38,868 bases of DNA, taken from the NCBI GenBank assembly GCA_016191015.1, contig JACPPM010000200.1, positions 85,954-124,821 on the forward strand. The letters are read 5' to 3'. Made by a program: the position numbers and the translations under genes. Shown here piece by piece: positions 6,040 to 36,503 of the stretch (position 1 is its first letter; every line of letters begins with the position of its first letter). A model generated the notes under the pieces. It was not told the DNA's origin. It did no database searches and saw nothing but the letters and a program-made list of their open reading frames with translations. The DNA is from Acidobacteriota bacterium. GTDB lineage: Bacteria > Acidobacteriota > CAIWXX01.

Positions 6040-6076
6040 CGCACTCTCCGTTCGCGCTCAGGGCCTTTCGTGGCCA

Positions 6077-7606
6077 CTATTTCCCGGGAACAGCGCATAT
6101 TGACGCTGCTCCCGCCTCAACGGTTACACGTATCATACTACTCTCCGATGCAACCTGCGCACCGCTCCAGAGATCCTTCACCTGCGCCTTTTCCCATTCT
6201 TCCGGAGCGGCAAACTCGACCATGGCGGGAGTCTTCCCGCGGTTCACCGCCACAACAACCGCGTCTTTCGCCGCAGCGTCGCGGCGCAGGAAGACCAGGA
6301 CGTCACCATCGGTCGCAATCGCCGTGTGAGCCCCGCGGGAAAGCGCCGGGTGTGCACGCCTGATCGCAATCAGGCGGCGATAGTCGTCGCGTAACGCTTC
6401 ATCGCGCGTTTGTCCGGCGCCGGGCTTCACCGCCTTCTCGCCCCACGGCATGTCGCTCCGGTTGTCGGGCCAGTCTCCACCCTTCCGGCCAACCTCCTCG
6501 CCATAGTAAACGACCGGGATCCCGACGGTCGTGAATTCGAGGACGGCGGCGAGGCGGAAGAGCTTGAGATCGCCGTTCAGGAGCGACAAGGCGCCCGGCA
6601 CATCGTGGGACGACAGGAAGTGCGCCACGTGGTAGCCGGACCTCGTCGCTTGGCGGCTCTCGAGGTAACGCTCGAACGCGATTGTGCGGCCGCGCCCGAG
6701 CAGGAAGCCGATTGCGCTTCCCTGGAAGCCAAAATCGATACCGGCGTCGATTTCGTCGCCGGCAAACCACGGATCGAGCACTTTCGGATCGCCACCCCAG
6801 ACTTCGCCGAGAAGGAAGAAGTCCTTCCCGAGCTGATCGCGTACGCGCCGGCGATGTTCCTGCCAGAATTCGTGAGTGACGTGCTTGAGCGTGTCGAGCC
6901 GGAATCCGTCGACCCCGGACCGCTTGGCCCAGCCGATCTGCGCGCCAAGCAGAAAATCGGCTACCTCGGAAAGCTCAGTCTTGAAGTCAGGCAATCCGGA
7001 GACGCACGAGGTGAGATCGTCCGCACCGCAGGTCCCGAGCGCCTCCGTGCGGAACCATCCCTTCGTCTTCGGATCGCTCAGATAGTGCGATCCGTAGCCG
7101 GCGTGATTGTAGACGACGTCCAGAAGGACCTTGAGACCCTTCGCATGACAGGCCTCCACGAGCGCCTTAAGATCCGCTTCCGTGCCGAATCGCGGATCGA
7201 GCTGGGTGAAATCGTCGGCCCAGTACCCGTGATAGGCCCAGTCGGGAAACCCGGCGCCGGTCACGAAGCCCTCGACGTTCTTGACGACAGGGGTGATCCA
7301 GATCGCGGTCACGCCGAGGCCGGCGATCTCATCGATCTGCGCGCGGAGTCCCTTGAGATCGCCGCCGTGGAACGCGCCCTTCGCCGCGGGGTCGACCTTG
7401 AGGTTATTCGTGGGATCGCCGTCGGCGAAGCGGTCGACGATGACGAAATAGATGATCGCGTCGGACCAGGCGGCTGAGGAGGGGAGTGGTTGCGCCAGGG
7501 CGCGGGACGCGGACAGAAACTGGAGCGCGGCGGCCACCCACACGGACGCGAAGCTCCACCGCCCACGGTGATCCAGCCACCCGCGCGATGAACCCCAGGT
7601 CCCCAT
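6077..7606 (-). CDS. Secreted alpha-amylase, GH13
   Basis: Glycoside hydrolase family 13 enzyme of 509 residues that cleaves alpha-1,4 glucans. All four family regions are present: I DVVYNHAG, II GFRLDTLKH (nucleophile Asp238), III LLGEVWGG (acid/base Glu268) and IV FLSSHD (Asp335). The N-terminus carries Arg residues, a hydrophobic stretch and SRALAQ, which fits a Sec signal peptide. The frame is open to 7705, but a near-consensus promoter at 7702-7730 predicts transcription start near 7695, so the in-frame ATG 7606 is preferred. It is the first gene of the operon and feeds malto-oligosaccharides to the importer. A cyclomaltodextrinase-like or maltogenic specificity cannot be excluded. Confidence 0.9.
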   Translation of the reverse strand: MGTWGSSRGWLDHRGRWSFASVWVAAALQFLSASRALAQPLPSSAAWSDAIIYFVIVDRFADGDPTNNLKVDPAAKGAFHGGDLKGLRAQIDEIAGLGVTAIWITPVVKNVEGFVTGAGFPDWAYHGYWADDFTQLDPRFGTEADLKALVEACHAKGLKVLLDVVYNHAGYGSHYLSDPKTKGWFRTEALGTCGADDLTSCVSGLPDFKTELSEVADFLLGAQIGWAKRSGVDGFRLDTLKHVTHEFWQEHRRRVRDQLGKDFFLLGEVWGGDPKVLDPWFAGDEIDAGIDFGFQGSAIGFLLGRGRTIAFERYLESRQATRSGYHVAHFLSSHDVPGALSLLNGDLKLFRLAAVLEFTTVGIPVVYYGEEVGRKGGDWPDNRSDMPWGEKAVKPGAGQTRDEALRDDYRRLIAIRRAHPALSRGAHTAIATDGDVLVFLRRDAAAKDAVVVAVNRGKTPAMVEFAAPEEWEKAQVKDLWSGAQVASESSMIRVTVEAGAASICAVPGK

Positions 7607-17417: not shown

Positions 17418-19457
17418 GTGTTCCAATCGGGGATGGCCGGTATCGGCCTACTGATCCTCATTGCGTTCGTCATCGTCGTTCGTTCGCTTCACCGGATCGG
17501 CCCGACCGAAGTCGGGCTCGTCACCAAGAAGTACGCGCGGGGCAAGCTCAGCGACGACAGCCCGATCGCCTTCAATGGCGAGGCTGGCTACCAGGCCGAG
17601 CTTCTCATGCCGGGGCTTCGATGGAAGTTCTGGCCTGTCTTCGCCGTCCAGAAGTTCCCGTGGGTCCAGGTCCCGGCTGGCGAGATCGGCGTCGTCATCG
17701 CGCAGCTCGGGCACCCGCTGCCGATCGGTGCAAAATCGGCGCAGTACAAAGCCGAGTTCGGGAATTTCACGAACCTGCGCCTCTTCGTCGGCCACGGCGG
17801 CGAAAAGGGCGTGCAGCGGCCGGTCCTGCCTCCGGGCACCCTGGCCCCGATCCATCCCGTTGCGTTTCTCGTCATCACGAAAACCGCCGTGTACGGCATC
17901 CCGGTCAGTCCGGATCTTCATAAGGTCGCCGACAGCCAGAAATTGCACCCGAGTCATTTCGGCCTGCAGGCGGCACAGCTCGAAGTCCTGCGGATCCAAC
18001 CGCGTCCGACCGAGAGCGGCGAAGTGCTCGATATGATCGGCACCGTGACGGCCTATGAAGGCCAGCCGGTCGGGGATGGCGATATCGCCAGCCGGATCGG
18101 TGGCTTTACCGACATTCATGCGCTCGAGGAGCAGGGCGCGCCTAACTCGAAAATGATCGAAGCCGTGATCACGAGCAAGAACAATCTGCACAACAACTAT
18201 CAGGACTTCCAGGCGTTTCTGGATCACGGTGGGCGGATCGGCCTGCAGCACGACCCGCTGCTCTACGGCGCATATACACTGAACCCGTTCCTGGTCGGTG
18301 TCGAGCTTGTTCCGATGCTGGTCGTGCAGCAGGGCGAGGTCGCCGTGGTCAAGGCCTACACGGGGCTTCCGACACAGGACACGTCGGGTGCCGAATTCAA
18401 GTTCGGTTCGCTTGTGAGGCCAGGTCACCGCGGCATCTGGGAAGAACCGCTGCGGACAGGCAAGTACCCGATCAACCCGCGCTGCTACCAGGCCGAGATC
18501 GTCCCGACGTCGATCCTCACGCTCAACTGGGCCGACGCCGTCTCGCAGGCGCACAACCTCGACCGCAACTTGAGCCAGATCATCGCCAAGTCTCGCGAGG
18601 GGTTCGTGTTCAAGATCGATCTACAGGTGCAGATCCACGTTCCCGACACGCAGGCGCCGAAGGTCATCTCGATTGTCGGCACGATGTCTAATCTGGTTAA
18701 TGAAGTCTTGCAGGCCGCGGTCGGCAACCACTTCCGCGACAAGCTGCAGGCGATGGAGGCGGTGGCGTTCATCGAGCGCCGCCAGGAGGTGCAGAGGCAG
18801 GCGTACGAGCACGTCCGCGACCAGCTCGAACAGTACCGCGTCGACACGCGCGGCGTGTACATCCAGGATGTGATCCTGCCCGAGGAGCTTGTGCGTATCC
18901 TGCGCGAACGCGAAATCGCGAAGCAGCAGATCGAGACGTTCGAGCGGATGCGACAGGCTGAGCAAAAGCGCATCGAGATGGAGCAGGCCAAGGGCACGGC
19001 CGACATGCAGGCAGATCTGGCGAAGTCGCAGGTCGGCGTCACGATCGAACAGAGCCACGCCGAAGCGCGCAAGGCGCAGGCGCAAGGTGAAGCGGCTTAT
19101 ATCGAGCGAATGGGCCAGGCCAAGGGCACGGCGCGCACCTCCGAAGCGCTGGGCGAAGCCGACTACATCGAGAAAACCGGCGTCGCGAAGGGTGCCGAGG
19201 TGCGTTCGGTAGGCCTCGCCCGCGCCGAAAGTTTCGAGAAACAGCGCGAAGCGCTCGGCAGCCAGGCCACCGCCCTCCTGAATCTCGCCGAGGCCCTCGG
19301 CCGCGTCGTCGGCGAGATCAAAGTGCCCGTGATGCCGCAAACCCTGATCACCGGAGGCGACGGGACATCGGTCCTGAACGGCGTCGGCGCCGCCTTGATG
19401 TCGTATCTGAAAAACGGGACGGCGCTGCAGGAGGGGGAAGACAACACCCAATCCTGA
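17418..19457 (+). CDS. Flotillin-like SPFH/band 7 membrane protein
   Basis: The product has 679 residues. GTG 17418 is preceded by AGGAGGAG. One N-terminal membrane helix (MAGIGLLILIAFVIVV, about 6-21) is followed by band-7/SPFH segments (RIGPTEVGLV near 27-36; MLVVQQGEVAVV near 295-306). A long charged coiled coil then follows (about 485-630; EREIAKQQIETFERMRQAEQ, then Ala/Gln/Glu repeats such as AQGEAAYIERMGQAKG). The C-terminus is AEALGRVVGEIKVPVMPQ. Flotillins scaffold ordered membrane microdomains and oligomerise through the coiled coil. The gene ends in a terminator. A diverged copy of its 3' end reappears at 29736-29838, on the far side of the first defence genes, in the same orientation. 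Confidence 0.9.
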   Translation: MFQSGMAGIGLLILIAFVIVVRSLHRIGPTEVGLVTKKYARGKLSDDSPIAFNGEAGYQAELLMPGLRWKFWPVFAVQKFPWVQVPAGEIGVVIAQLGHPLPIGAKSAQYKAEFGNFTNLRLFVGHGGEKGVQRPVLPPGTLAPIHPVAFLVITKTAVYGIPVSPDLHKVADSQKLHPSHFGLQAAQLEVLRIQPRPTESGEVLDMIGTVTAYEGQPVGDGDIASRIGGFTDIHALEEQGAPNSKMIEAVITSKNNLHNNYQDFQAFLDHGGRIGLQHDPLLYGAYTLNPFLVGVELVPMLVVQQGEVAVVKAYTGLPTQDTSGAEFKFGSLVRPGHRGIWEEPLRTGKYPINPRCYQAEIVPTSILTLNWADAVSQAHNLDRNLSQIIAKSREGFVFKIDLQVQIHVPDTQAPKVISIVGTMSNLVNEVLQAAVGNHFRDKLQAMEAVAFIERRQEVQRQAYEHVRDQLEQYRVDTRGVYIQDVILPEELVRILREREIAKQQIETFERMRQAEQKRIEMEQAKGTADMQADLAKSQVGVTIEQSHAEARKAQAQGEAAYIERMGQAKGTARTSEALGEADYIEKTGVAKGAEVRSVGLARAESFEKQREALGSQATALLNLAEALGRVVGEIKVPVMPQTLITGGDGTSVLNGVGAALMSYLKNGTALQEGEDNTQS

Positions 19458-19588: not shown

Positions 19589-20974
19589 ATGATAACTCGC
19601 CTGCGCATCCAGAATTTCAAAGCCTGGAAAGATACGCAATCCATCCGATTGGCGCCGATAACGGTCTTCTTCGGTGCGAACAGCGCAGGCAAGACTAGTC
19701 TCCATCAGCTCTTGTTGATGCTCAAACAGACCGCGCAGTCGTCGGATCGCCAGCGAGTTCTTCACCCGGGTGGCGATCAGAGCATCGTCGATCTCGGCAC
19801 GGTACAGGATCTCGTTTTCGCACATCAAGGGACTGCCCGAATAGAGTTCGAGATCGAGTGGAGCCTGAATGCGGAGCTCCGAGTGAAGGACACCCTAGCT
19901 GAGACCGAATACCGGGGCGAAAGGATGAGCTTTGCAGCTAAGATAGCCCCTCGTGACGGCAAGCTTCCCTCGCTTGTGGTTGAAAACATGCGCTATCAGC
20001 TCGGTGTCGCAGCCGAGGGTGGCCTTGCAGTGCAGATGATCGAGCAACCTAATTTTCCTGGGAGGTATGAGATTGCGTGCGACGGTCCCCCGCTGGTTCG
20101 GCAGCGTGGTCGCGCATGGCCGCTACCCGCCCCCATTCGGTTCTATGGGTTCCCGGATGAAGTAAGGGCGTATTTCCAGAACGCGGACTTCGTCGCCGAT
20201 CTGACTCTCGCCTTCGAACAAATGCTGAGCGGACTGCATTACCTCGGACCCCTTAGAGAATACCCGCGACGCACGTACATGTGGTCTGGCGAAAGGCCCG
20301 AGCACGTGGGAACGCGCGGTGCGAGCGCCGTCGAGGCGCTCCTTGCGGCACGCGATAGGTTTCTCAACCGTCGGCCAAAGGCCAAGAAGGAGCCCTTTGA
20401 ACGTGTGGTTGCGCGCTGGCTCAAAGCGATGGGGCTCATTGAGGAGTTTGAGGTCCACCGAGTAGCCCCCCATTTGAAGGAGTACGAGGTCAGGGTTCGT
20501 ACGGCTGGTAGCCCACACATGGTGAGCCTTATGGATGTGGGGTTTGGCGTCTCACAGGTTCTGCCCGTCTTGGTCGAGTGTTTCTATGTTCCAAGTGGGG
20601 CAACGATCATCTTTGAGCAACCCGAAATTCATCTACACCCGCGCGTCCAGGCAAAGCTCGCCGATCTCTTCATTGAAGCGATTCACATGCGCGAAGCCGG
20701 CAAGAGCCGGGGTGTCCAGTTGATCATCGAGAGTCATTCGGAGCATTTCCTTCGCCGTCTTCAGCTCGGGATCGCCGAGGAGAAACTCAAACCAGAGGAG
20801 GCTGCACTCTACTTCTGCGAACCGGGATCGGAGGGATCACGGATTCATGAGCTGCAACTTGATCTTTTCGGCAACATTGATAATTGGCCGGATTCTTTCT
20901 TTGGGGATGAGCTCGGGGATCTCGCGGCAATGAACGATGCGGCTATGCAGCGATCGGAGCGCACTCGCAGTTGA
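19589..20974 (+). CDS. OLD/AAA_15-type ABC ATPase with DUF3696-like C-terminus
   Basis: The ATPase has 461 residues and opens with MITRLRIQNFKAW, the classic start of RecF/OLD/AAA_15 ATPases. Walker A is GANSAGKT (29-36), the signature-like segment is DVGFGVSQVLPVL (about 316-328), Walker B is IIFEQPEIHLHP (340-351) and the H-loop is ESHSEHFL (381-388). The tail FGNIDNWPDSFFGD (about 430-443) resembles the DUF3696 end of such proteins. No TOPRIM nuclease is fused; the effector is probably the PIN protein whose TTG start overlaps this stop by 4 nt. Comparable ATPase plus nuclease pairs (OLD, Gabija, PARIS) sense phage and unleash a toxin. The sensing role here is inferred. Confidence 0.85.
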   Translation: MITRLRIQNFKAWKDTQSIRLAPITVFFGANSAGKTSLHQLLLMLKQTAQSSDRQRVLHPGGDQSIVDLGTVQDLVFAHQGTARIEFEIEWSLNAELRVKDTLAETEYRGERMSFAAKIAPRDGKLPSLVVENMRYQLGVAAEGGLAVQMIEQPNFPGRYEIACDGPPLVRQRGRAWPLPAPIRFYGFPDEVRAYFQNADFVADLTLAFEQMLSGLHYLGPLREYPRRTYMWSGERPEHVGTRGASAVEALLAARDRFLNRRPKAKKEPFERVVARWLKAMGLIEEFEVHRVAPHLKEYEVRVRTAGSPHMVSLMDVGFGVSQVLPVLVECFYVPSGATIIFEQPEIHLHPRVQAKLADLFIEAIHMREAGKSRGVQLIIESHSEHFLRRLQLGIAEEKLKPEEAALYFCEPGSEGSRIHELQLDLFGNIDNWPDSFFGDELGDLAAMNDAAMQRSERTRS

Positions 20975-21522: not shown

Positions 21523-24500
21523 GTGAGCACAACGCGTTATCCGTGGACCCGATTCTGGATTCCGCGCGGAGACATCGTGCACTTCGACGACGGCGGGTAC
21601 TTCTCCGATCCGGTGGTCGGGGTCGGGCAGTACCTGCACGAGAATGCCAGGATGCTCGCCTCTCTGCGAGATTGCCCCTGCCTCGTTCTCCTCGGGGAAG
21701 GTGGCGCAGGGAAGACGGATGAGATGAGCATGCTCCGCGAGCAGATCCATTCGGCTGGCTCAGGGGAGAAAGTCCTGTTCCGAGATCTGGGTACTTACGG
21801 CTCCGAGGATCAACTGCACGCCGATTTGTTTGGTTCAGATGTCTTCCGAGAGTGGACCAGAGGGACCGACCGGCTCGTCCTATTCCTTGACAGCCTGGAT
21901 GAAGCCTTCTTGGAGTTCAACACGGTTGCCGAGCTCATCAAGAGGGGCTTGAGGGATGCCCCTGTGAACCGGCTCAGCATTCGGATCGCCTGCCGAAATG
22001 TCTGTTGGCCCGAGAGTCTTTCGGCTTACTTCACGGGGTGCTTTGGGCCGGAGAACGTCGGGACCTACGCACTGGCTCCTCTTCGGCGAGTTGACGTCAA
22101 ACGAGCCATTGAGGAGGAGGGACTCGACGGTGATGCGTTTCTGGCTGCCGTCGCCGCCACCGAGGCACAGGCCTTCGCCATTAACCCGTCGACACTCCGG
22201 ATGCTGATCGGAGTTTTCAAGAACAAGGGTGGATTGCCCAGGAGAAAATCGGACCTGTATGAACAAGGACTGAAGCATCTCTGTGAGCCGAGCGATGAAA
22301 GACGGGAACGCCAACGCGGTCCGGCGTTGAGCGCGACCGAGATGCTTGATGTCGCCGCCCATATCGCAGCCATGACCATTCTGACCGGCCGTCCGTCCAT
22401 CTACGATGGCCACGAGTGGGACGCTCCGGTACGGTGCGTATCCCTGTCCTCACTCGGTGTCGCGGGCCCCGCGGCCGCGGGCTCCGAGCAGATTGCGAGC
22501 GAACAGAACATCCAAATGACTTTGCGGAATACCGGGCTGTTCACGAGCGAGGGGCCCAACCAATACAAGTTCTCGCATCGCACCTATCAGGAGTATCTGG
22601 CGGCGAGGTTCCTTGCACGGGCGAACCTCTCGCCGCAACAGCTTGACAGCCTACTCTTCCACCCTGAAGGTAAACCGCGCCAGCTCATTCCGCAGCTTCG
22701 CGAAGTGGCGGCATGGATCGGCGTTCTCAACCCGGGCTTTTTTGAACGGGTCTTCCAATCTGAACCGGAGACGGTGTTGCTGTGTGACTCCTCTGTCCTC
22801 GATGGAGATATCAAGGCGCGTGTCGTGAACGAGCTTCTGGTGAAGATCGAGCGGGGCGATCTGCCAGAGGAGCTGACTGAATCCCTCTCCGAGCATTTCC
22901 ACAAGCTGCGCTATCCGGGTCTTGCAGAGCAAGTCTCCAAAGTAATGCTCGACACGGAAAGAAACTGGCGCGTGCGCCTGATCGCCATGGACATCGTTGC
23001 GGAGTGCGGACTGCGGGACTTGGCCGGCATGGTGGCGCGCTTGGCGCTGGACCAGACACTTGACATGCAACTCCGCACACAAGCCGCGCTGACGGTCGAA
23101 CGGCTTCGAGACGATGATGCGTGCCAGATGCTCAGGCCGCTCGCGTTAGGACTCGCCGGTGAAGATCCAGACGATGAGCTCCGAGGATGCGGCCTTAATG
23201 CCACATGGCCAGAACATCTGACCGTGCGAGAGCTGTTCAATAGCCTGACGCCACCGAAGAAGAGGCACTATGTAGGGACCTACTCCGTGTTCCTCCATAA
23301 AACGGGAATGCTGTCAGGTTTGGACGATGACGGGCTTCGGATCGCGATGCGTTGGGCAGGCTCACAGTTGCCTCCGGGCGAATCAACTCACGCCCTTGAC
23401 CAGATCGTCGTGCTGTTGGCCAAGCGAGCCTGGACTAACATGAATGATCCGGTCGTCCTCGAGAATCTGGCACTGCTCGCCATTCGGCACTCTATGGAAC
23501 AATTGCCTCTGTTCGGCACGGGCTCGCAGGAGGATGAAATCCTGTCTCCGGATCCCTACGAGGTTACTTCGCAGATGATCCAACATGATACAGAGCGCCG
23601 TCGAAAGCTCATCACCGGAGTCGTGCAGTGCGCAGTTGGCATCGCAGACATCAGAGCCTTGAGCATCAACCCGACGCCACTCTGTCTCACAGACGACTTC
23701 CCGTGGTTGGTCCAGGAGGCACTTGAGGCGGACGGAGTGACTGCCGAAGTGTGGAGTGAGCTGGCTCGCATGGCCTTCGACATCAATGACCCGGATCACG
23801 TGTCAATCTGGGTGGTCGCGCGCGATAAGTCTGCGGCATTGGCATCCGCGATGCCTTGGCCGGTGTCGGTTGATCTATCGAGCCAGGCGGCGCGGGCGGG
23901 ACGTAATCGCCTCGAAGACCTGCGGCAGCGGGAGCAACGGCAGAGGTCAATGCGAGAATCGCTTCCTCCGCGAGGACAACGTGTCAAGGAACTGGCGACC
24001 CTCTGTCGCGGCGGGGCCGTGGAGTTGTTTTGGAGGCTCGCCGCCGAGATGTCCGCCGCCGGCGAGAGCCCGTGGACATCAATCACTCTGGATCTGACGA
24101 GCACCCCCGGATGGAAAGAGGCGGATCAACCCACGCGAGAGAGCATTCGAGAAGCGGCACGAAGGTATCTTGGTGACGCTGTGCTCGATCCGAACGCCTA
24201 CCTGGGAAGTGGACAGATCCGTCTTTCCGACCTCGCCCCACCCCAGGCCGCTCTTCTTCTGCTCGATGAGAATCCGCGCTCACTGGATGATTTGGACAAA
24301 CAGAGGTGGAGAGTCCTATCCCCGTGCGTCTTGGCGGCACTGGATGGCATCCCTTCCCACAACGCCGAGGCCGCTCGCCGAGTCCTGGCGCTAGCCTGGA
24401 ACAAGGTACCTGACGAAGCACGGACAACCACACGCCTGCTCATCGCCAGACGAGCCGCACAATCCTACCTCCCAACCATCTTGTCACTTCTCGGCCCGGT

Positions 24501-25599
24501 CGCGGATGAGGAGTTTCTCATCGGTCTGCTCGGCGAGCTGAAGGAGAACCCTTCAGCTTGGATGGCGTTCGGAGACATCCTCGGATGGCTGATAGACCAG
24601 AAGGCCCCCGGCGCTTTGCAGCACGCCGAGGGCCTGGTTCGTACACCCGTCGCGATCGATTTGCTCGAGCGGGATTGCTCGATCGAAGCCGGTACCGCAC
24701 TGATGCTCTATGGTCCCGATGCGGGTTGGAGGGTCATGTGGCCTGCTCTCTCAGTTGATCCAACCTGGGGAAAGGAAGTCTTGGAGAGAGTGGCTGACAA
24801 GGCGGATGACAGAGACATCGTGGTCGAAGAAAGACTTTCCGATGATTCCGTGGGACTGCTGCTTTCGTGGCTCGTCAGGGAGAATTCGCCGGAGACGGAC
24901 GACGAACCCCAAGGTGCGTTCGTCGCCACTCAAGAGTGGGGGGTACGGGAATGGCGCAACCGGTTGGTCTGCCACCTGCGAGACCGTGGCACTCGATCGT
25001 CCTGCGCCGCAATCGAGCGTCTGTGCAGTGAATACCCGGCAATCGAGTGGCTGAGAGCAGTGCTTGCGGCAGCGAACGAGAATCTTCGCAGCAATTCATG
25101 GGCTCCACCAACTCCTGCGCATATCTTGGCGCTGGTCGAGAGCTCCAGGCGACGTTACGTCACAAGCGGAAGCCAGCTCCTCGATTTGATCTGCGAGAGC
25201 CTTGAACGCCTGGCAATGACGCTGCACGGAGAGACGCCAGCCGTACGCTTTCTCTGGGAAAACGCGGAGACATCAACACCCAGACCGGTGATTGAGAACA
25301 AGCTCTCTGATTACGTCGCAATTCACCTGAGAGATGATCTGCAGGGCGAGGTTGTCGTGAATCGCGAGGTAGAAGTGAGGGCTCCGCTTCGGTCAGTTGA
25401 AGGGGCAGGCCAAGAGACTGACATTCATGTGACCGCACGCCTCACTCGCGACTCCTGGGCGCCAACCGATATCCTGAGTGCGATCGTCGAGGTCAAGGGC
25501 TGCTGGAACCCAGACGTGCGCCACGCGATGAAGACGCAACTCGTCGGCAGGTACGTGCATGAGAACCCCTCCCCATTCGGGCTCTATCTGGTCGGTTGA
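21523..25599 (+). CDS. NACHT-type STAND NTPase with C-terminal PD-(D/E)XK nuclease (interrupted)
   Basis: The product has 1358 residues. GTG 21523 follows GTGAGGAG. The P-loop is GEGGAGKT (58-65), Walker B is LVLFLDSLDEA (118-128), and the NACHT-linked motif FSHRTYQEYLAARF is at 350-363. A long helical, HEAT-like middle (about 380-1230) would be the sensor. The C-terminus is a restriction-type fold: Asp1300 in TDIHV, then Glu1323-x-Lys1325 in IVEVKG, then QLVGRYV and GLYLVG. The frame then stops at TGA 25597. In this nuclease family YLVG is normally followed by Trp, and 55 further open codons downstream continue the domain. So the gene carries a late nonsense change, a sequencing error or readthrough. 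An anti-phage role is inferred from the architecture and neighbours. Confidence 0.85.
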   Translation: MSTTRYPWTRFWIPRGDIVHFDDGGYFSDPVVGVGQYLHENARMLASLRDCPCLVLLGEGGAGKTDEMSMLREQIHSAGSGEKVLFRDLGTYGSEDQLHADLFGSDVFREWTRGTDRLVLFLDSLDEAFLEFNTVAELIKRGLRDAPVNRLSIRIACRNVCWPESLSAYFTGCFGPENVGTYALAPLRRVDVKRAIEEEGLDGDAFLAAVAATEAQAFAINPSTLRMLIGVFKNKGGLPRRKSDLYEQGLKHLCEPSDERRERQRGPALSATEMLDVAAHIAAMTILTGRPSIYDGHEWDAPVRCVSLSSLGVAGPAAAGSEQIASEQNIQMTLRNTGLFTSEGPNQYKFSHRTYQEYLAARFLARANLSPQQLDSLLFHPEGKPRQLIPQLREVAAWIGVLNPGFFERVFQSEPETVLLCDSSVLDGDIKARVVNELLVKIERGDLPEELTESLSEHFHKLRYPGLAEQVSKVMLDTERNWRVRLIAMDIVAECGLRDLAGMVARLALDQTLDMQLRTQAALTVERLRDDDACQMLRPLALGLAGEDPDDELRGCGLNATWPEHLTVRELFNSLTPPKKRHYVGTYSVFLHKTGMLSGLDDDGLRIAMRWAGSQLPPGESTHALDQIVVLLAKRAWTNMNDPVVLENLALLAIRHSMEQLPLFGTGSQEDEILSPDPYEVTSQMIQHDTERRRKLITGVVQCAVGIADIRALSINPTPLCLTDDFPWLVQEALEADGVTAEVWSELARMAFDINDPDHVSIWVVARDKSAALASAMPWPVSVDLSSQAARAGRNRLEDLRQREQRQRSMRESLPPRGQRVKELATLCRGGAVELFWRLAAEMSAAGESPWTSITLDLTSTPGWKEADQPTRESIREAARRYLGDAVLDPNAYLGSGQIRLSDLAPPQAALLLLDENPRSLDDLDKQRWRVLSPCVLAALDGIPSHNAEAARRVLALAWNKVPDEARTTTRLLIARRAAQSYLPTILSLLGPVADEEFLIGLLGELKENPSAWMAFGDILGWLIDQKAPGALQHAEGLVRTPVAIDLLERDCSIEAGTALMLYGPDAGWRVMWPALSVDPTWGKEVLERVADKADDRDIVVEERLSDDSVGLLLSWLVRENSPETDDEPQGAFVATQEWGVREWRNRLVCHLRDRGTRSSCAAIERLCSEYPAIEWLRAVLAAANENLRSNSWAPPTPAHILALVESSRRRYVTSGSQLLDLICESLERLAMTLHGETPAVRFLWENAETSTPRPVIENKLSDYVAIHLRDDLQGEVVVNREVEVRAPLRSVEGAGQETDIHVTARLTRDSWAPTDILSAIVEVKGCWNPDVRHAMKTQLVGRYVHENPSPFGLYLVG

Positions 25600-26230: not shown

Positions 26231-29200
26231 CTAGTTTCCCTCCTTTCCGCCCGTCCATTCGCGGGCCTCCTTGCGCAGGTAGTTTCCCAACTTCGCCACG
26301 ATCCCGATGACCTCATTGATCTGCGCTCTTAGATTGGGTCCCTCAAAGACGGGATCTCGCGCGGCCTCAAATGGGTATGGCTTTAGCCAATCATTAATTG
26401 CGGCTTGCGCAGCCGCGATGATTTCGTGGAACTGCCGTTCTGGATTCTCGCGAAATGCGCGGACCGTGGCAGCGTATGCAATTGCCGGCGAGCATGAGGC
26501 ATAAAATCGTGAAAGGACTTCTCCAGGACGAAGCGATCGTCGGGCTCTCTGCCATAAGTATTGGATCTCATGAGCGGACCGCACAGTCATTTGGGTGATC
26601 GACCCGAACGGATCGCCTCCAAGGCCACTAATGACCCTCCAACAGCCTTGGATTGCTCGACCGTGTCCGTTCGCACAATCACCGAGTGCTTGGGCCATCG
26701 TCGCGTAACCGTCCAGGGGAGGCGGCGCCCCTTCCTCGATCATTCGCCTGCATGCCTCAACCGCACGCCTACGGTGGAAGAGCCCTTTCTTCACAAATTC
26801 CAGGCCACAACGGAAGTGCTCAATGAATGCCGTGCGATCCGTCGTCAGAACCTCGCTATCACGCCATTGCCGATAAAACTCGCCGTGGAATCGTTGAATC
26901 ATCCAGACGGCAAGCCAGTAATCCTTCGTCGCCTCGTCCACGGCTGCGCTTTCGATCCAGGTCAGCTCCTCATCCCAGCAGGCCTCCCAGCCGTCGATAC
27001 ATTTTGCCAGAGCGTGGACTCTTTCATACTCGCGCGTGTAATAGTCGGCATACATCATGATGCGGTTGTGCCTCCGCATGAACCACCATTTGGCCGGAAT
27101 CGCGTGAGCGGCCGTGAAATAGTGGTCAATTCGCGATCCATCTTCATGAAACCGAAGGGCAAACCGAAGTTGTTCCTCTGCGTGGTTTTCGTTTACGGGA
27201 GGGAGAAAGTAGCCCAGATAGTTTATGGAATGGGAGGCAAGGTAGGCAGCCATTCCCAAGTGCTCCGGCCTGACAGCAGCTTGAGCGCGCGATACTGTCT
27301 CATAGAGTTCTGCGTGCGGCTGGATTCGACTTACACCTTGGGCACTCCTGTCAAATGCGCCAGTATGCTGCAACCATTGCAACGCGCGGTAAGAACGAAG
27401 AAGCGCGTCAAGTGTGCTTCGGCGAATGCGCAAGTATGCTTCGTTCGCAACATCCAGAAACGGAGATACGCCACGCTTCTCTCCGCATAGGCTCCAAATC
27501 AGAAACACGTACACCCACGGTGGCTGCTCGATGAGTACAGGGCCAAGCTCGAACTCCGAATGTCCTCCGGCGATCTCCCTGAGGATCGTCAGCGCCGAAA
27601 GGGCGTCCTGTAGGTAGTCATGATCAAACCGCACGCGGTCCTGCACCGGGCGAATCATCTCTGGACCTGCTCGATCGAGGAGGCCTGGCGGTGCCTCCGT
27701 CGCGGGGATCCATCGTTCTCCTTTTGTGCGGTAGGCAAATTGCGAAAGTTCCTCGCGAACACTGGGGCGCAACATTCGCAGCCTTTCCTGCACGAACTGC
27801 TCAGGTTGAATGGAGAAATGGCCCTCACGAAAAGCTTCGACGACCTGGATGTCCGGCCTCGTTTCGAGATATGGCCAGTCATCAGCCACTTCGGAGCGGC
27901 ACGCGAGCACAAGCACAGCATCGTCCGGCACCTTGACCCGCGAGAGTTCCTCCTTCCAGTACTCGGCGTTTCGCTGAGCGAGAGTGTGATCAAAGTGGTC
28001 CACCAAGAATAGCCTGCCCGATTTCTCCGGTGATTTTCTCGTGCTCAGGTCCAGTTCCCGTGCATCACGTGGAATGAATTCGATGTGAAAGGCAGACCAG
28101 GATCGAGGTGCGTTGGCGGCCAAGTTACGCAGTAACGTCGACTTACCTACGCCACCGGCGCCCACCAGAAGGTAGACCGTCCCCCGGCGTAGGTTACAGT
28201 CCGTCACGAGCCCCGCTGCCGTCACTCGCAGGAGCGTCTCACCGAGCTGACAGCTCTGAGGCGTGAGGACTCCGTCCGCTCCAATGAATACTCTGGCACC
28301 CCTTTCGCGATTCTCCACGACGACGGCGCCAGCTGGCTCAAAGCTCACCTCCTTCGATCGGTGAACCGAAAGAAAGCGGCATACCCATTCAGGATCGTGT
28401 TTGCCGACTTGGAGCCGCACGGTGCACTCAAGATCCCGCCGAGGAGCTGGCGACGGAGCGATGAGATGGTAACGTGCCTCCCAGCGGATATCCGGCATTC
28501 GGTCAATCCTCAGGACTCCCGCCAGCCGACGATTCCGCCGGATCAGGTCACGCTCCAACATCTCACGGGCTCGTTCGAGCTGATACTCCCTCACGATAGG
28601 ATCCAGGAGCGGTGTCAGTGCAACGCCATACCTGATTTCGAGATCTGCGCTGGGCCCGAGACATACAGAAGGAGTCCCAATGAGACTTACGTCCGAGTAC
28701 TTGTGTTTGGGCTCGCCCTTCTCCCACAGGAGACTGGCATCGATGCGTTCGCGGCTCCACTCCTGTGCCTCGTCGACAAGGTGGAGCAGAAAGGATACCG
28801 GATCGTGGCGAAGTGAGATTCCGAACCACTCGTCTTTGGAGGAAACCAGGTACTGAAAGTTATGGCTGGCGCAGGCGAGCGCAGCAGTCCTGAGAACCGC
28901 ACCCGTGAAACTGCGTTCCGAAGGGGCGCTCAGATCCGCCTCGTTCGCCCGATCCCAGAGTAAGAACGCGGCGGTGAGTGCATGGTCTGGTTGATCAAGC
29001 TGTCTCCGAAGCGCGTCACTCGAAAGAATCGGCACCTTCCGCCTCCGCTCCTCGTCAGTGGCATAAAGGCCCGCTCTCCAGGCGAACAAGGGCGCCAGAG
29101 GGGCGTCTTTCCCGTAGGTCATCGTCATCCCAGGAACAGAAGTGTCTACGTACGGGAAATCTTGGACCACCTGCCGGGCGAAGCTGAGTGAAAAGTGATG

Positions 29201-29656
29201 GAACTGAATGGGATACCCGATGTCATGGAAGTGAGCGGCGAGAAACCAAACGCGATTGAGAAACACCATCGCATCGCCATCATGACCCGTCCGCCGAGCC
29301 AGGTCGGCGCCAAGTGGCTGGAAGTAGCTCGTCGAATTCAAGATGAAGTAACCGAGGAGGAAGTCGTGAATGGTATGTCGCAGGTGGTCGCGCTGTTCTT
29401 GAACCAGCGCGTTCACCACACCCTCCGACTCGAGCATTCTGGTAAAGAGGAAGTCAGCCAACTCCGCATCGTCAGGGTCATCAAGGGCATCCACAAGGCG
29501 CAAGGAATAGTGGCGATACATTGATTCGACGCTCGCCGCCGTGTTGGCATCCGCCAACGCGGAAAGGATTACGTCTTTCAGCCACACGTCTCCACCCAGC
29601 CGGGCAATCCCCTGCAAGAGAAGCGTCAAACTCGGATCGGTCGTGGAGACGTCCAT
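26231..29656 (-). CDS. HD-domain / STAND P-loop NTPase fusion
   Basis: The product has 1141 residues. The N-terminal third carries an HD metal-hydrolase pattern: His91/His94/His97 (DHLRHTIHD), the paired HFHDIGYP (His144-Asp145), ASHNFQYL (His265) and LLHLVDEAQEW (Asp295). The centre is a P-loop NTPase with Walker A GAGGVGKS (499-506) and a Walker B-like strand LFLVDHFDH (about 549-557). The C-terminal half is helical, without clear repeats I can assign, and would be the sensor. The layout effector-NTPase-sensor matches STAND immune proteins, with an HD hydrolase as the putative effector (nucleotide or nucleic-acid phosphohydrolase). No strong ribosome site is seen before ATG 29656. Function is inferred; I know no named system with this order. 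Confidence 0.75.
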   Translation of the reverse strand: MDVSTTDPSLTLLLQGIARLGGDVWLKDVILSALADANTAASVESMYRHYSLRLVDALDDPDDAELADFLFTRMLESEGVVNALVQEQRDHLRHTIHDFLLGYFILNSTSYFQPLGADLARRTGHDGDAMVFLNRVWFLAAHFHDIGYPIQFHHFSLSFARQVVQDFPYVDTSVPGMTMTYGKDAPLAPLFAWRAGLYATDEERRRKVPILSSDALRRQLDQPDHALTAAFLLWDRANEADLSAPSERSFTGAVLRTAALACASHNFQYLVSSKDEWFGISLRHDPVSFLLHLVDEAQEWSRERIDASLLWEKGEPKHKYSDVSLIGTPSVCLGPSADLEIRYGVALTPLLDPIVREYQLERAREMLERDLIRRNRRLAGVLRIDRMPDIRWEARYHLIAPSPAPRRDLECTVRLQVGKHDPEWVCRFLSVHRSKEVSFEPAGAVVVENRERGARVFIGADGVLTPQSCQLGETLLRVTAAGLVTDCNLRRGTVYLLVGAGGVGKSTLLRNLAANAPRSWSAFHIEFIPRDARELDLSTRKSPEKSGRLFLVDHFDHTLAQRNAEYWKEELSRVKVPDDAVLVLACRSEVADDWPYLETRPDIQVVEAFREGHFSIQPEQFVQERLRMLRPSVREELSQFAYRTKGERWIPATEAPPGLLDRAGPEMIRPVQDRVRFDHDYLQDALSALTILREIAGGHSEFELGPVLIEQPPWVYVFLIWSLCGEKRGVSPFLDVANEAYLRIRRSTLDALLRSYRALQWLQHTGAFDRSAQGVSRIQPHAELYETVSRAQAAVRPEHLGMAAYLASHSINYLGYFLPPVNENHAEEQLRFALRFHEDGSRIDHYFTAAHAIPAKWWFMRRHNRIMMYADYYTREYERVHALAKCIDGWEACWDEELTWIESAAVDEATKDYWLAVWMIQRFHGEFYRQWRDSEVLTTDRTAFIEHFRCGLEFVKKGLFHRRRAVEACRRMIEEGAPPPLDGYATMAQALGDCANGHGRAIQGCWRVISGLGGDPFGSITQMTVRSAHEIQYLWQRARRSLRPGEVLSRFYASCSPAIAYAATVRAFRENPERQFHEIIAAAQAAINDWLKPYPFEAARDPVFEGPNLRAQINEVIGIVAKLGNYLRKEAREWTGGKEGN

Positions 29657-30032: not shown

Positions 30033-30437
30033 TCAGGGAATGATCTGAAATCTCTGATGCCCGTTAAGCCGGTAGACGGTGAAGTCGGTACGCTCCACAG
30101 TGAAGATCTGATCTAGACCCTCGCGCTCGGCTACACAGACGAGCGTCGCATCGGCCAGATCCATCTGGCGGTCGTTGTACTTCTGCATGAGCTCTCGAAT
30201 TCGCTGGTTGTCGTGTTCGGCAACTTGAAGAAACGTGATCCGGACTTCTTCCGCGAAATCCCACAGGCGTTCGGGGCCGTTGGGAGCATCGTGTAAGAGA
30301 TACATGGCCTCGGTGAAGGCGGGCCAAACCGTCGCCAGCGGCTCGTCGATAGTCTTGAATGCCTCGGCACACGCAGCGTGATGCTGATCATCGCGATCGA
30401 GAAGAGCAACCAGCGGGCCGGCGTCCACTAGAATCAT
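30033..30437 (-). CDS. PIN-domain protein at the end of the hsd operon
   Basis: The product has 134 residues and VapC-like length. Acidic positions are Asp5 (MILVDAGPLVALLD), Glu43 (AFTEAMYLL), Asp93/Asp96 (MDLADATLVCVAE) and Glu115/Asp118 (FTVERTDF), a complete PIN metal site. ATG 30437 overlaps the hsdR stop as ATGA, so translation is coupled to the restriction subunit. No antitoxin lies upstream; the only candidate is the truncated ORF just downstream. It may be a VapC toxin captured by the operon or an added ribonuclease effector; context favours the second only weakly. Confidence 0.82.
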   Translation of the reverse strand: MILVDAGPLVALLDRDDQHHAACAEAFKTIDEPLATVWPAFTEAMYLLHDAPNGPERLWDFAEEVRITFLQVAEHDNQRIRELMQKYNDRQMDLADATLVCVAEREGLDQIFTVERTDFTVYRLNGHQRFQIIP

Positions 30438-33400: not shown

Positions 33401-33604
33401 AACGTCGGCGGGGATCAGGCAGAGGGCACGGTCATAGTCTTCCGGACGCCGCCTGCGATAGCCGCCGGGCTCCGGGCCATCGCCATACGGCGCCACTGGT
33501 TCGTGCACGACCCAGGCTTGCCCCGCGCACTCATCAGGGCCACGTGCAAGCAACGCACACTCGATTGCTTCTTCGAAGCTGCGTTCCGAGATCTCCGGAC
33601 TCAC
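30434..33604 (-). CDS. hsdR: Type I restriction endonuclease subunit R
   Basis: HsdR of 1056 residues, normal length. The N-terminal nuclease has Asp164 and Glu178-Leu-Lys180 (LDVVLFLNG, then FTAELKN). The helicase motor has Walker A SAGSGKS (331-337), DEAH (437-440) in VIVDEAHSSQSGE, and motif III FTATPKG. It translocates DNA and cleaves remotely when HsdM/HsdS find unmethylated sites. GTG 33604 overlaps the hsdS stop as GTGA and its own stop overlaps the PIN start. No frame breaks are seen, so the system looks intact. Confidence 0.95.
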   Translation of the reverse strand: MSPEISERSFEEAIECALLARGPDECAGQAWVVHEPVAPYGDGPEPGGYRRRRPEDYDRALCLIPADVLGFVNATQPREWEKLGHHYGAEVKDRFLKRLSREIERRGALDVLRTGVKDAGCKFMLAYFRPSSGLNEPLQKLYQANLFAVVRQLRYSQKNENRLDVVLFLNGIPIFTAELKNPLTGQTVEDAIQQYRFDRDPREPLLAFRRCLVHFAVDPDLVYVTTHLEGPTTRFLPFNQGKFGGAGNPPVPPTQRGYATAYLWDRIWARDSILELLQHFIHEVEEEDENGRRTGRSKLIFPRYHQLDAVRRLVRDARERGPGQHYLIQHSAGSGKSNSIGWLAHRLSVLHDAHDRRVFDSIIVITDRRVLDRQLQRTIRQFEQTSGLVENIDKTSHQLKEALEAGKTIIVTTLQKFPVIANQIQELPTNRFAVIVDEAHSSQSGESTKSLKSVLTVSSLEEAEAVDGAVEEDIEDRVEAEMRKRGPLPNVSFFAFTATPKGKTLELFGTPRPDGKFEAFSLYSMRQAIEERFILDVLENYTTYKTYWRLLKTIKDDPHYDRNKASYLLRSFVDLHEHPIRKKVEIIVEHFRERVVHRIGGHAKAMIVTRSRLHAVRYKLALDAYLKERNCPYRALVGFSGTVRDGGADFTETGMNTLPETQTAAAFRRAEFRFLVVAEKFQTGFDEPLLHTMYVDKKLGGVHAVQTLSRLNRVYPAKGETIVLDFANEAEEIQRAFEPYYEKTLLSEATDPNKLYDLEHRLGEFDVFDAGDLDAFAKVYFRPGAQQDQLYAVLAPTVERVGALSEEERADFRGALDDYVRLYAFLSQILTFTDPGLEKLYVFARLLRRYLPVERGQLPREIQSKIDIESYRIQQTHSGRITLERGLNEIPPIGSEIRHGKSEEDLEALSKIVRELNERFGTDFTEEDKVFIHELEDRLTADEALMQSVRVNTPENARLAFDHVVSDRLQDMVDTNFKFYKRVTDDPQFGKFFGDWLFERFRTSVDTRTRAGESEPERRPYDAVAHLIGSVEGGDPKRSEGGAKKIAEILRKRRRQ

Positions 33605-35838
33605 GCAACTTCCTCCCGCACGTCGATCTTCCCTGTCACTCCGGCGGAAATCAGCGCGGTGCGGTACACCTTGAGGCGATCAATGGCCTCGTGGACTTTG
33701 GAGATCAACGCGTCGAACTTGGATACTTCGCAATCGATCTTGTTCACCATGGCTTGTTGCTCTGGAAGCGGCATGATCAGAACGCGCAGATTCCTGATGT
33801 CATCGAGTCCCAGTCCCTGCTTGGTACCACCATACAGCGCCGTCGCAAATTGCGACTGCCCCACGGAAGAGAGCAGGCAATAAGCAAGCCATCGAGAGTG
33901 TGTCAAATCGGCGCGAGGCCGCACGAGAGCCAAATGTTGATTGACGTAAGCTATTGCCATTTCTTGGGGGACGACTCCCACCGCACCAATAAGTGCTGTG
34001 ATCGATATCAAGACATCCCCCGCTACCACTCTTGTCCTCTGGCCCTCCGCGCCGTCTGGCGGCACAACTCGTTGGATGTCAGACAAATCGAGATCTATCG
34101 ACCCCGACCTGAGATTGCCAATTTGTAGGAAAACGCTCCCCTGGTCTGCGTAGAACTCAGCCCATCCCCGAGAACCGCTCGTAATGAATGAAGCCACGTT
34201 CTTGATACGGAGCACATCCCAATGCGCCGGGATCCTCCCCAGCCACTCGACTCCCGAATCCTTCATCGGGACGTTCGGGTCGAGGCCCTTGGTGACAGCG
34301 TCTGTGATCAGTGTAGTACGCTTCTGCTGAAGCAGCTCGATCAGCCGCTCCTTCTTGGCAATCAGCGCGTCGATCTTCGTGGTCTGGCGAGTGAGGAACG
34401 TTGCGATGGCCTGCTGTTGCTCATAGGAGGGCAATGGGAGCGAAACGTCAGCCATATCGCTCTGGGTCAGCTTGTCGCGTGTACTGCCGTCTATGAACAC
34501 CCCGTACTCCACACAATTGAGAGCGCTCGCCAGGAATTCACCGAAAATACCTTGTCTGGGGCGCAGCACATGTATGTGGTTGTTGACCCAGATCTTCCCA
34601 GTCACACAATAGGCAACCGTCTTATGAGGTTCCAGGAAAGGCGCGCCGTCCTCGCCCAAGAGCACGAGCTCCTCGTCAAAGATCCATCGATCGATGTGGT
34701 CGACTACGCCACCGGCGCCCCAGTAAGGGTAGTCCCCTTGCATCATACTTCTCTCCTGAGAATTCAAGGGGACCCGCTTGCCATCGAGGCAAGAGACGAG
34801 ATGGCGGACCCTCTTCACACCCCAATGGTTCGGGATTTCTCCCATCCACGGGACGTCTGAGTGCTTGTATGAAGGATATGGCTTGAGTCCTGACGATAGC
34901 GTGGAAGTTGGTTCCCTCTTCGCGGGTGTCCATGACCCGTCATCAATCCATGCTGTACCAAGCTCTTGCTTACCAGTCAGAGCCTCGATCAAAGGCCACA
35001 GGAACCCTCTGATGGCTTCCCCAACCGCGCTGAAGTCGCGCGGCGCGCGCGTGAGGCCGTTCCTTTCAAGGTATGCCCGCCACTGGTCAGCTCTTCCGCG
35101 GTTGGCGAAGAAGGCTGGCGAGAGACCGGGTGGCAGCGATCCTGGCAGGTCTGTGTTGCGCCGTTCGAAAGTCGCGGCGATGGCACGCGAAAGGGTCGCG
35201 CTGTCGAATGTGAACACCTTGGAGAGAACGAACAGGTCGTAGAAGTCTTTCAGTCGGCTGTTTGCCTCGCCGAGGTGGACCATCGCATGAAGCTTTTCGG
35301 CGACGACGGCTTCGCGCGGGTAAGCTCGGATGCGAGGGGCAGGGCCGCCCAGCATGGTCGGAAAGTCAACATCCTGCGGCCCGGGAACGACATCGTTGCC
35401 GAACCCAATGTCCACCTGCAGTGAGATCATGGCGCGTTCTAAGTGGGCTTCGATACGAAGGCGAACTCCCAGGTATTCAGCACTGTCGCGGATCTTCTCA
35501 GCCTCGATGGTGTCCGAAAGAAAACGAAGAGCGTCGTCCGGGACATCGATCGAACAGATCTCGCGGAAGCACTTCGCCATCGCCGCGGGATCGGGCGCTC
35601 CATGACCGAGAAGGTCAAGGTCGCGAGTCGAGCGATACGCATCCCCACCCCAGACCGTGTACAGCATTGCCCCCTTGAGCACGAATTGATCTCGGTACGT
35701 TGATCGCGACAGCCGGTAGAGCAGCCGCTCTGCCGTGTATCGCTGCATAACCAGTTGGAAGTCCTCCTGCCGCTCCCGGGCGCGGTTGAGAAGCCTCGCG
35801 TGGATGGAGGCGGCCAGGTTGCGCGGGGTCTCTCTCAC
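33601..35838 (-). CDS. hsdS: AbiEii-type nucleotidyltransferase toxin fused to type I specificity subunit HsdS
   Basis: The product has 745 residues. Residues 1 to about 303 are an AbiEii/AbiGii nucleotidyltransferase: LKGAMLYTVWGG, then STRDLDLL with the catalytic Asp pair (73, 75), AEKLHAM (180-186) and RLKDFYDL (195-202), ending in a WIDDGSW motif. After a short linker, SSGLKPYPSYKHS at about 315 opens a full HsdS. TRD1 runs to about 465, the central helices (LPLPSYEQQQAIATFL, 467-482) follow, TRD2 begins at a second KDSGVEWLGRIP (526-536), and the distal helices carry LPEQQAMVNKI. No ATG, GTG or TTG suited to a separate hsdS start lies in the linker; the first in-frame ATG is inside WMGEIP. 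GTG 35838 overlaps the abiEi stop. AbiEii toxins modify tRNA or consume GTP; tethering one to HsdS is unusual. Confidence 0.88.
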   Translation of the reverse strand: MRETPRNLAASIHARLLNRARERQEDFQLVMQRYTAERLLYRLSRSTYRDQFVLKGAMLYTVWGGDAYRSTRDLDLLGHGAPDPAAMAKCFREICSIDVPDDALRFLSDTIEAEKIRDSAEYLGVRLRIEAHLERAMISLQVDIGFGNDVVPGPQDVDFPTMLGGPAPRIRAYPREAVVAEKLHAMVHLGEANSRLKDFYDLFVLSKVFTFDSATLSRAIAATFERRNTDLPGSLPPGLSPAFFANRGRADQWRAYLERNGLTRAPRDFSAVGEAIRGFLWPLIEALTGKQELGTAWIDDGSWTPAKREPTSTLSSGLKPYPSYKHSDVPWMGEIPNHWGVKRVRHLVSCLDGKRVPLNSQERSMMQGDYPYWGAGGVVDHIDRWIFDEELVLLGEDGAPFLEPHKTVAYCVTGKIWVNNHIHVLRPRQGIFGEFLASALNCVEYGVFIDGSTRDKLTQSDMADVSLPLPSYEQQQAIATFLTRQTTKIDALIAKKERLIELLQQKRTTLITDAVTKGLDPNVPMKDSGVEWLGRIPAHWDVLRIKNVASFITSGSRGWAEFYADQGSVFLQIGNLRSGSIDLDLSDIQRVVPPDGAEGQRTRVVAGDVLISITALIGAVGVVPQEMAIAYVNQHLALVRPRADLTHSRWLAYCLLSSVGQSQFATALYGGTKQGLGLDDIRNLRVLIMPLPEQQAMVNKIDCEVSKFDALISKVHEAIDRLKVYRTALISAGVTGKIDVREEVA

Positions 35839-36503
35839 GATACCATCGCCTCAATGTAAGGACGGATCACGCTAAGAATCCGACAGACCTCCGCCGCGCG
35901 CGAGATCTCGTCCACAGTGGCTCGTCTCGTCCGAAGCACGTCTCGTAGGGCTTCAAGGGCAACGTCCAGGCCGACTTTGTTTCTGTATCGAAAGCAGTCG
36001 ACGACAGTTCGCGCAGGGGATGTTATGCGGCACGTCACCCCTTCGATGTCCCGAGCGAGTACACCATATCGCAGCATCGGTCCCGAGAACCGGATAACTC
36101 GAATCGGCAGCTCACTCAGCCGAGGCTTGCGGGCCTTCCGATCAAGCGCGATCCAGACGTCCTTCGACACCTGTGTACCTATGCGGTGCACGTGCAGCGC
36201 CGTGAGCAGGCAGATGATCGCACCCGGCACACGCTTGCTGACCATCGCGACCGTCTCGTGCTCGCTCGGCGCGAGGTTCCGCCGCCGATATAGTCCACGC
36301 CCGATCCGGTCGACCTCCCCTCGTGCGATCATCATGCGCAGGCGGCCGGTCGGAATGCCGGCCTCCTGCAGATCTCGTGGTCGGAACAGCCCGGGCAGCC
36401 TCCGAGACCAGGCCCGGAGTTTCGCGGCGGCACCCAGTTTCATGAGAGGCATGTTAGCAGAATACGTCGGCATTTGGAAGCAAGTGCCGACATTTTCGGT
36501 CAC
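35835..36503 (-). CDS. abiEi: AbiEi-family antitoxin / transcriptional regulator
   Basis: The product has 222 residues from GTG 36503, which overlaps the hsdM stop as GTGA. An N-terminal winged helix (LFRPRDLQEAGIPTGRLRMMIARGEVDRIGRGLYRR) is typical of AbiEi antitoxins. The C-terminal part (ITSPARTVVDCFRYRNKVG) is the usual antitoxin domain. An internal start at ATG 36452 (MPLMKLG) would skip 17 residues and lies just past an inverted repeat, so two starts are possible. AbiEi represses its own promoter and neutralises AbiEii; here the toxin is the N-terminal half of the next gene product. Confidence 0.85.
   Translation of the reverse strand: MTENVGTCFQMPTYSANMPLMKLGAAAKLRAWSRRLPGLFRPRDLQEAGIPTGRLRMMIARGEVDRIGRGLYRRRNLAPSEHETVAMVSKRVPGAIICLLTALHVHRIGTQVSKDVWIALDRKARKPRLSELPIRVIRFSGPMLRYGVLARDIEGVTCRITSPARTVVDCFRYRNKVGLDVALEALRDVLRTRRATVDEISRAAEVCRILSVIRPYIEAMVS
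36465..36492. promoter_or_regulatory. Inverted repeat, candidate AbiEi operator
   Basis: CGTCGGCA (36465-36472) and TGCCGACA (36485-36492) are 7-of-8 inverted arms whose centres are 20 bp apart, two helical turns. They lie inside the first codons of abiEi and upstream of the alternative start ATG 36452. A weak -10 (TATTCT on the minus strand, 36464-36459) follows. AbiEi proteins bind inverted repeats at their own promoters, so an internal promoter is plausible. Confidence 0.4.

Follow-up and report, generated by a model that had tools for sequence, protein, structure and literature searches.

The window, the whole stretch of 38,868 nucleotides analyzed here, carries on its minus strand a type I restriction-modification (R-M) operon with a complete AbiE toxin-antitoxin pair inserted between the methyltransferase and specificity genes (Table 1). 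We favor, with somewhat better than even confidence, the reading that this AbiE pair is a built-in module forming an internal sub-operon that is autoregulated by AbiEi. The type I R-M gene set is represented in one operon by hsdM, an hsdS part with two target recognition domains (TRDs), and hsdR with its motor and nuclease domains. In keeping with the AbiE organization, abiEi, encoding an N-terminal winged helix-turn-helix (wHTH) and a C-terminal antitoxin domain, is located directly 5' of abiEii. The genes are ordered hsdM, abiEi, the abiEii::hsdS open reading frame (ORF), hsdR and a PIN-domain gene, and consecutive frames of the operon share 4 nt, including those of abiEi and the fusion ORF as well as the fusion ORF and hsdR. 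The position of abiEi between hsdM and hsdS had been proposed from the sequence beforehand and is borne out by this order.

Table 1. Coordinates of the operon features in the window and the evidence for each
Feature	Position	Strand	Evidence
hsdM, type I methyltransferase subunit, 696 aa	36500-38590	-	Pfam HsdM_N and N6_Mtase; PADLOC MTase_I PDLC03029, E 1e-270
Palindrome GTCGGCA-N12-TGCCGAC, predicted AbiEi operator	36466-36491	no strand	Short gap from the hsdM stop to the likely abiEi start
abiEi, antitoxin/wHTH regulator	35835-36452	-	Pfam AbiEi_4, 7.4e-11; PADLOC AbiEi, 1.5e-68
abiEii::hsdS fusion ORF, GTG start, 745 aa	33601-35838	-	Pfam and PADLOC matches; AlphaFold2 model
AbiEii nucleotidyltransferase part, residues 1-305	34924-35838	-	Alignment of 23 homologues; PDB relative AbiGII 9hlo
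Linker, residues 306-317	34888-34923	-	pLDDT < 50 at 307-317; codon scan: no stop, no in-frame start
HsdS part, residues 318-745	33604-34887	-	PADLOC Specificity_I; Foldseek 1yf2, 7vs4, 5ybb
hsdR, restriction subunit, 1056 aa	30434-33604	-	Pfam HSDR_N, SWI2_SNF2, T1R_D3-like

The PIN-domain (VapC-like) gene at the end of the operon (30033-30437, minus strand) overlaps the hsdR stop by 4 nt and is a second toxin-like gene; a VapB antitoxin was not evident upstream of it. Directly 3' of the R-M operon, 26231-29656 (minus strand) encodes a protein of 1141 aa with a weak mid-protein match to STAND NTPases and an N-terminal HD-like stretch, possibly a further defense gene. On the plus strand an AAA_15/DUF3696 ATPase (19589-20974) and a Band 7/SPFH protein (17418-19457) are encoded in tandem 5' of an ORF of 1358 aa (21523-25599), and this region may be a defense island.

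Recurrence of the embedded pair and its predicted operator

Related loci were collected with an HsdM scan, which yielded 80 loci that were subsequently annotated with HMMs. In 45 loci, AbiEi and AbiEii were present 3' of hsdM, and 38 of these had hsdS on the contig as well. The synteny hsdM-(x)-abiEi-abiEii-hsdS(-hsdR) was observed in about 40 related type I operons distributed over the Acidobacteriota, Planctomycetota, Chloroflexota, Gemmatimonadota, Cyanobacteria, Pseudomonadota and Myxococcota. Together with the 4-nt overlaps and a conserved predicted operator, these syntenic loci strongly support the claim of the original prediction that a toxin-antitoxin pair is wired into the type I operon. 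In L098, the usual pair between hsdM and hsdS is joined by another abiEi and a partial abiEii (5288-6417), which are located between hsdS and hsdR.

The predicted operator between hsdM and abiEi is a palindrome with the consensus AAATGTCGGCAC...GTGCCGACATTT and a spacer of N12/13. Its arms matched at 14/14 positions in 24 of 57 loci and at 13/14 or better in 36 of 57, and none of 1140 mononucleotide shuffles reached at least 13/14. All 28 exact copies in 1.30 Mb of related loci were located 46-288 nt upstream of an AbiEi domain, and the best match in 17 AbiE-free R-M loci was 12/14, with none at 13/14. Standalone abiE loci carried variants in which both arms changed together, e.g. GTCGGTA/TACCGAC. 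The window contains a single copy (0 expected by chance), which begins ~10 nt past the hsdM stop. Since the AbiEi of Streptococcus autorepresses its promoter via inverted repeats (Dy 2014, PMC3985639), it is reasonable to infer that AbiEi would bind this palindrome. A sigma70-like -35 element and spacer coincide with the palindrome in homologues, as in TTGACT-N18-TACAAT of L157; the -10 element of the window is weak, which we count against our preferred explanation. Two perfect palindromes ~60-80 nt apart preceded abiEi in L085, L111 and L146, an arrangement that would suit cooperative binding. No such palindrome was found 5' of hsdM, where the best match was 12/14, so that AbiEi control over the whole operon is not suggested.

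The position of the palindrome also bears on the start of abiEi, which was chosen from the window sequence and the homologues. The GTG at 36503 that opens the longest ORF is probably not the start because the palindrome lies under it, while the ATG codons at 36452 and 36443 follow the palindrome and one of them is probably the real start. The gene itself was correctly recognized in the original prediction, but its extent to 36503 is probably too long. The abiEi ATG of L101, L113, L116 and L157 is found only a few nt past the -10-like box that follows the palindrome, and this proximity suggests a leaderless antitoxin mRNA.

According to the model we prefer, HsdM would be made from the upstream part of the operon, outside AbiEi control, and AbiEi would bind the hsdM/abiEi palindrome with its wHTH and repress an internal promoter for abiEi, abiEii, hsdS and hsdR. 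Since the frames overlap from abiEii through hsdS to hsdR, a repressor at the palindrome would set toxin, HsdS and HsdR jointly; AbiEi would then be both the antitoxin to AbiEii and a brake on restriction that adjusts the dose of toxin, HsdS and nuclease together. Restriction would be expressed only alongside its antitoxin-regulator, and loss of the operon would leave the longer-lived toxin without antitoxin, thereby favoring retention of the R-M operon. AbiE is known to stabilize plasmids (Dy 2014, PMC3985639). The most likely benefit would be addiction combined with dosage control.

Comparison of distance matrices from 23 operons gave a Mantel r of 0.75 for AbiEi-AbiEii and 0.94 for HsdM-HsdR, a moderate value of 0.49 (p 0.0005) for HsdM-AbiEii and a non-significant 0.17 for HsdM-AbiEi. 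On the AbiEii tree, the labels embedded and standalone required ~12 changes compared to 29 when shuffled, with some of the "standalone" loci having short flanks and possibly being embedded as well. The modest covariation with HsdM and the ~12 changes indicate that inheritance of the abiE pair is not strictly tied to that of the R-M genes, which also counts against our preferred explanation. The pair has entered or been exchanged in the hsdM/hsdS slot several times, yet it stays clustered there.

The fused gene and its split relatives

The fusion frame is open throughout its 745 codons. PADLOC AbiEii (PDLC02312, profile positions 1-298 of 299) matched residues 1-304 and Specificity_I (PDLC03072, profile positions 3-442 of 448) residues 318-743, and both halves are complete because these profiles were matched end to end, as anticipated by the claim that AbiEii shares one frame with a complete two-TRD HsdS. 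Pfam AbiEii matched residues 38-272 (2.3e-44) and Pfam Methylase_S two stretches. The AbiEii motifs that had been named beforehand (DLD 73-75 and RLKDFYDL 195-202) are present, and the catalytic positions KGA 55-57, RxTxDLD 69-75, K182 and KDxxD 197-201 are intact. These catalytic residues are conserved in the 23 aligned AbiEii homologues, among which nucleotidyltransferase motifs I-IV are invariant or nearly so, as is characteristic of AbiE; the second position of motif I is A across this aligned subfamily rather than G/S. The AlphaFold2 model (mean pLDDT 81.4) contains two confident folded domains joined by a linker that is predicted to be disordered. Its HsdS half displays two TRDs and two long coiled-coil helices (472-517 and 691-735), and Foldseek related this C-terminal half to type I S subunits (1yf2, E 4e-20, as well as 7vs4 and 5ybb); H. 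pylori nucleotidyltransferases (4ok0, 4o8s) were returned at lower significance, and a sequence profile of the N-terminal half found AbiGII (9hlo). Each half of the fusion may still be working.

Among the relatives, split genes are the rule. AbiEii ends in GGPWR* in G293 and G263, where HsdS starts in an overlapping ATGA; the overlap is GTGA in G321; HsdS starts a few nt from the AbiEii stop in G391 and G205, and in G049 an in-frame stop is followed by a GTG a few codons later. Of 42 surveyed abiEii-hsdS loci with both genes on the same strand, 28 were directly adjacent pairs (conserved HsdS start region at most 130 nt from the AbiEii stop), all 28 of which had a start codon at -5 to +15 nt from the abiEii stop and 18 a 4-nt overlap. 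One surveyed locus, L085 from a planctomycete of the Phycisphaerae, was a fusion, and the whole genome (G396) confirmed it, with query positions 7-745 covered and no stops. Its linker is unlike that of the window, an in-frame ATG is retained at the HsdS start, and a single indel separates it from an ATGA overlap. Since the AbiEii parts of the window and L085 belong to different supported clades of the AbiEii tree, the two fusions most likely arose independently, and each could return to separate genes by a small change. The predicted fusion of AbiEii to HsdS is true of the window sequence, but the homologues are nearly all split; the suggested search for an N-terminal AbiEii on HsdS homologues recovered L085, but not a shared linker.

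No third fusion was found by full-length tblastn over ~1,600 genomes from five phyla, with only a few candidates scored per genome. The fusion protein as query against genome contigs found no related locus, and no plasmid or phage record covered 80% of it. Several candidates were discarded: the open frame of G341 (reported as 1079) is not a fusion, as its hsdS is frameshifted; G1446 (1178) was likewise rejected; and the match of residues 4-382 in a fecal "Bacteriophage sp." represents read-through of stops behind a standalone abiE pair. The in-frame fusion is probably a rare, recent variant and not a separately selected sensor.

A chance loss of the stop and start between two coupled genes, tolerated but adding nothing to what the split parents do, and perhaps with one half weakened, is a serious contender, though we place it below even probability. 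The frequency of two fusions per ~43 operons, their separate AbiEii clades and unlike linkers, and the ATG still present at the HsdS start of L085 agree with such an accident, but both halves are complete with their catalytic and TRD features intact, and neither exhibits visible decay. This reading overlaps with our preferred explanation, the sole difference being whether tethering is useful. Under the model of an AbiEi-autoregulated sub-operon, translational coupling of the overlapping genes in split operons would keep toxin and HsdS near 1:1, and the loss of the junction stop and start in the window would make this ratio exact and tether the toxin to HsdS and the methylase by a flexible linker.

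Role of AbiEi, reality of the junction and restraint of the toxin

Six of the annotated operons (L086, L116, L120, L128, L129 and L132) carry AbiEi directly before hsdS and lack AbiEii, most of them with the palindrome, which is matched at 13-14/14 in L086, L116, L128 and L129. In these operons abiEi may be kept as a restriction regulator, and they speak for a reading in which AbiEi is mainly a restriction control protein, similar to the C proteins of type II systems, and AbiEii a dispensable passenger. We regard this as unlikely overall, because both genes are kept in ~40 operons, the motifs are intact in the 23 aligned AbiEii proteins and the covariation between AbiEi and AbiEii is strong. 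Moreover, AbiEii without AbiEi was not seen among the annotated operons, the asymmetry that a toxin-antitoxin pair should show.

At the junction, the codon scan revealed no stop and no in-frame ATG, GTG or TTG between codons 283 (TTG) and 332 (ATG), in agreement with the earlier statement that the linker holds no plausible start codon; an ATG at 34933-34931 is out of frame. The fusion of the window is known from one draft contig, a point against our preferred explanation, and an indel error could have merged two overlapping genes, given that the 6.4-Mb source genome is a draft of 349 contigs and that overlapping split genes prevail among the relatives. Editing a single base of the Trp303 codon would recreate a 4-nt (ATGA) overlap, and the HsdS start restored in this way would precede the conserved PYP by 17 codons, the spacing seen in G321, G049 and G205. 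However, the same edit would destroy Trp303 of AbiEii, which is invariant in the 23 homologues, and the Trp-Thr tail recurs in G071. Most other single edits would place the AbiEii stop ~35 codons past Trp303, within hsdS, which resembles none of the examined relatives. We therefore consider a sequence error rather improbable and the fusion of the window probably genuine.

The original prediction further proposed that toxicity is tied to assembly of the M2S or R2M2S complex, so that the fused toxin would stay silent as long as HsdS is in a complex with HsdM (and HsdR) and would be freed by a phage anti-restriction protein or loss of the methylase, as for PrrC in EcoprrI. The tethering of toxin and HsdS in one chain, the PrrC precedent of a toxin restrained by an R-M system (PMC12707154, PMC3710099) and the general coupling hypothesis of Makarova 2012 (PMC3506569) are in line with such a guard, but the linker is predicted to be disordered in the AlphaFold2 model, which does not indicate a fixed interface, nearly all relatives are unfused, and, like the window, every observed operon with AbiEii also has a dedicated antitoxin, AbiEi. 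In addition, two relic loci retain the toxin with AbiEi after loss of the R-M genes: in G049 (L047) hsdM codons 1-125, ~20 hsdS codons and a piece of hsdR surround an intact abiE pair with its operator, and in G023 (L048) only the start of hsdS is left of the R-M genes next to an intact pair. The toxin thus persists at these loci without a working R-M complex. Because the pair and operator of G049 are intact among fragmentary hsdM, hsdS and hsdR, the R-M complex is probably not the restraint of the toxin in relatives, and the proposed link to complex assembly found no support here, with no feature of the fusion suggesting it; nor does the PrrC-like pattern of Hsd restraint in place of an own antitoxin apply. 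We judge the guard quite improbable. The same low probability is assigned to AbiEii being a true methylase subunit carried on M2S or R2M2S, dosed by AbiEi and with its toxin activity or target access following the assembly state; if true, the fusion would act as a combined toxin and sensor signaling that the R-M system has failed.

Comparison with known systems

In the open-access literature, no description was found of AbiE inside type I R-M operons, of the palindromic operator between hsdM and abiEi, or of an AbiEii-HsdS fusion. In the operons described here, a complete toxin-antitoxin pair with a conserved predicted operator recurs as an internal part of type I R-M systems in many phyla and is coupled to the DNA-specificity gene. 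A long-discussed link between restriction and programmed dormancy thereby becomes testable, the questions being whether restriction, too, is under antitoxin control and whether the toxin forces cells to keep the operon.

Type I loci with toxin or toxin-antitoxin genes have been described before, the nearest precedents being PrrC in EcoprrI (PMC12707154, PMC3710099) and DarTG2 embedded between hsdS and hsdR (PMC12255303); other toxin-like domains in type I loci were noted by Makarova et al. 2012 (PMC3506569). According to the latter study, the toxins of immunity loci come without typical antitoxins, a statement that neither the embedded DarTG2 nor the present AbiE pairs fit.

With the type IV AbiE system (Dy et al. 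2014, PMC3985639) the pair shares its bicistronic abiEi-abiEii organization, the wHTH antitoxin, the DUF1814/COG2253 nucleotidyltransferase motifs and inverted repeats 5' of abiEi. In contrast to that system, it sits inside a type I R-M operon, its palindrome is different, its toxin is translationally coupled or fused to HsdS, and its motif I is hGA instead of the published consensus hG[G/S]. The DarTG2 of the RRDM island (PMC12255303) is likewise a complete toxin-antitoxin module inside an hsdM-hsdS-hsdR operon with a local repressor. However, DarTG2 occupies the slot between hsdS and hsdR and its repressor, RptR, is a separate protein, whereas AbiE lies between hsdM and hsdS, regulation probably falls to AbiEi itself, and the toxin directly adjoins HsdS or is fused to it. 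PrrC of EcoprrI has in common with the present operons that a translation-targeting toxin gene resides inside an hsd locus, in that case of type IC, but it is held by the Hsd proteins without a separate antitoxin, while AbiEi is present here and relic pairs persist without Hsd proteins. Finally, the fusion protein shares two TRDs, two long helices and the C-terminal repeat with ordinary type I HsdS subunits (1yf2, 5ybb), from which it differs by the N-terminal AbiEii extension of 305 residues.
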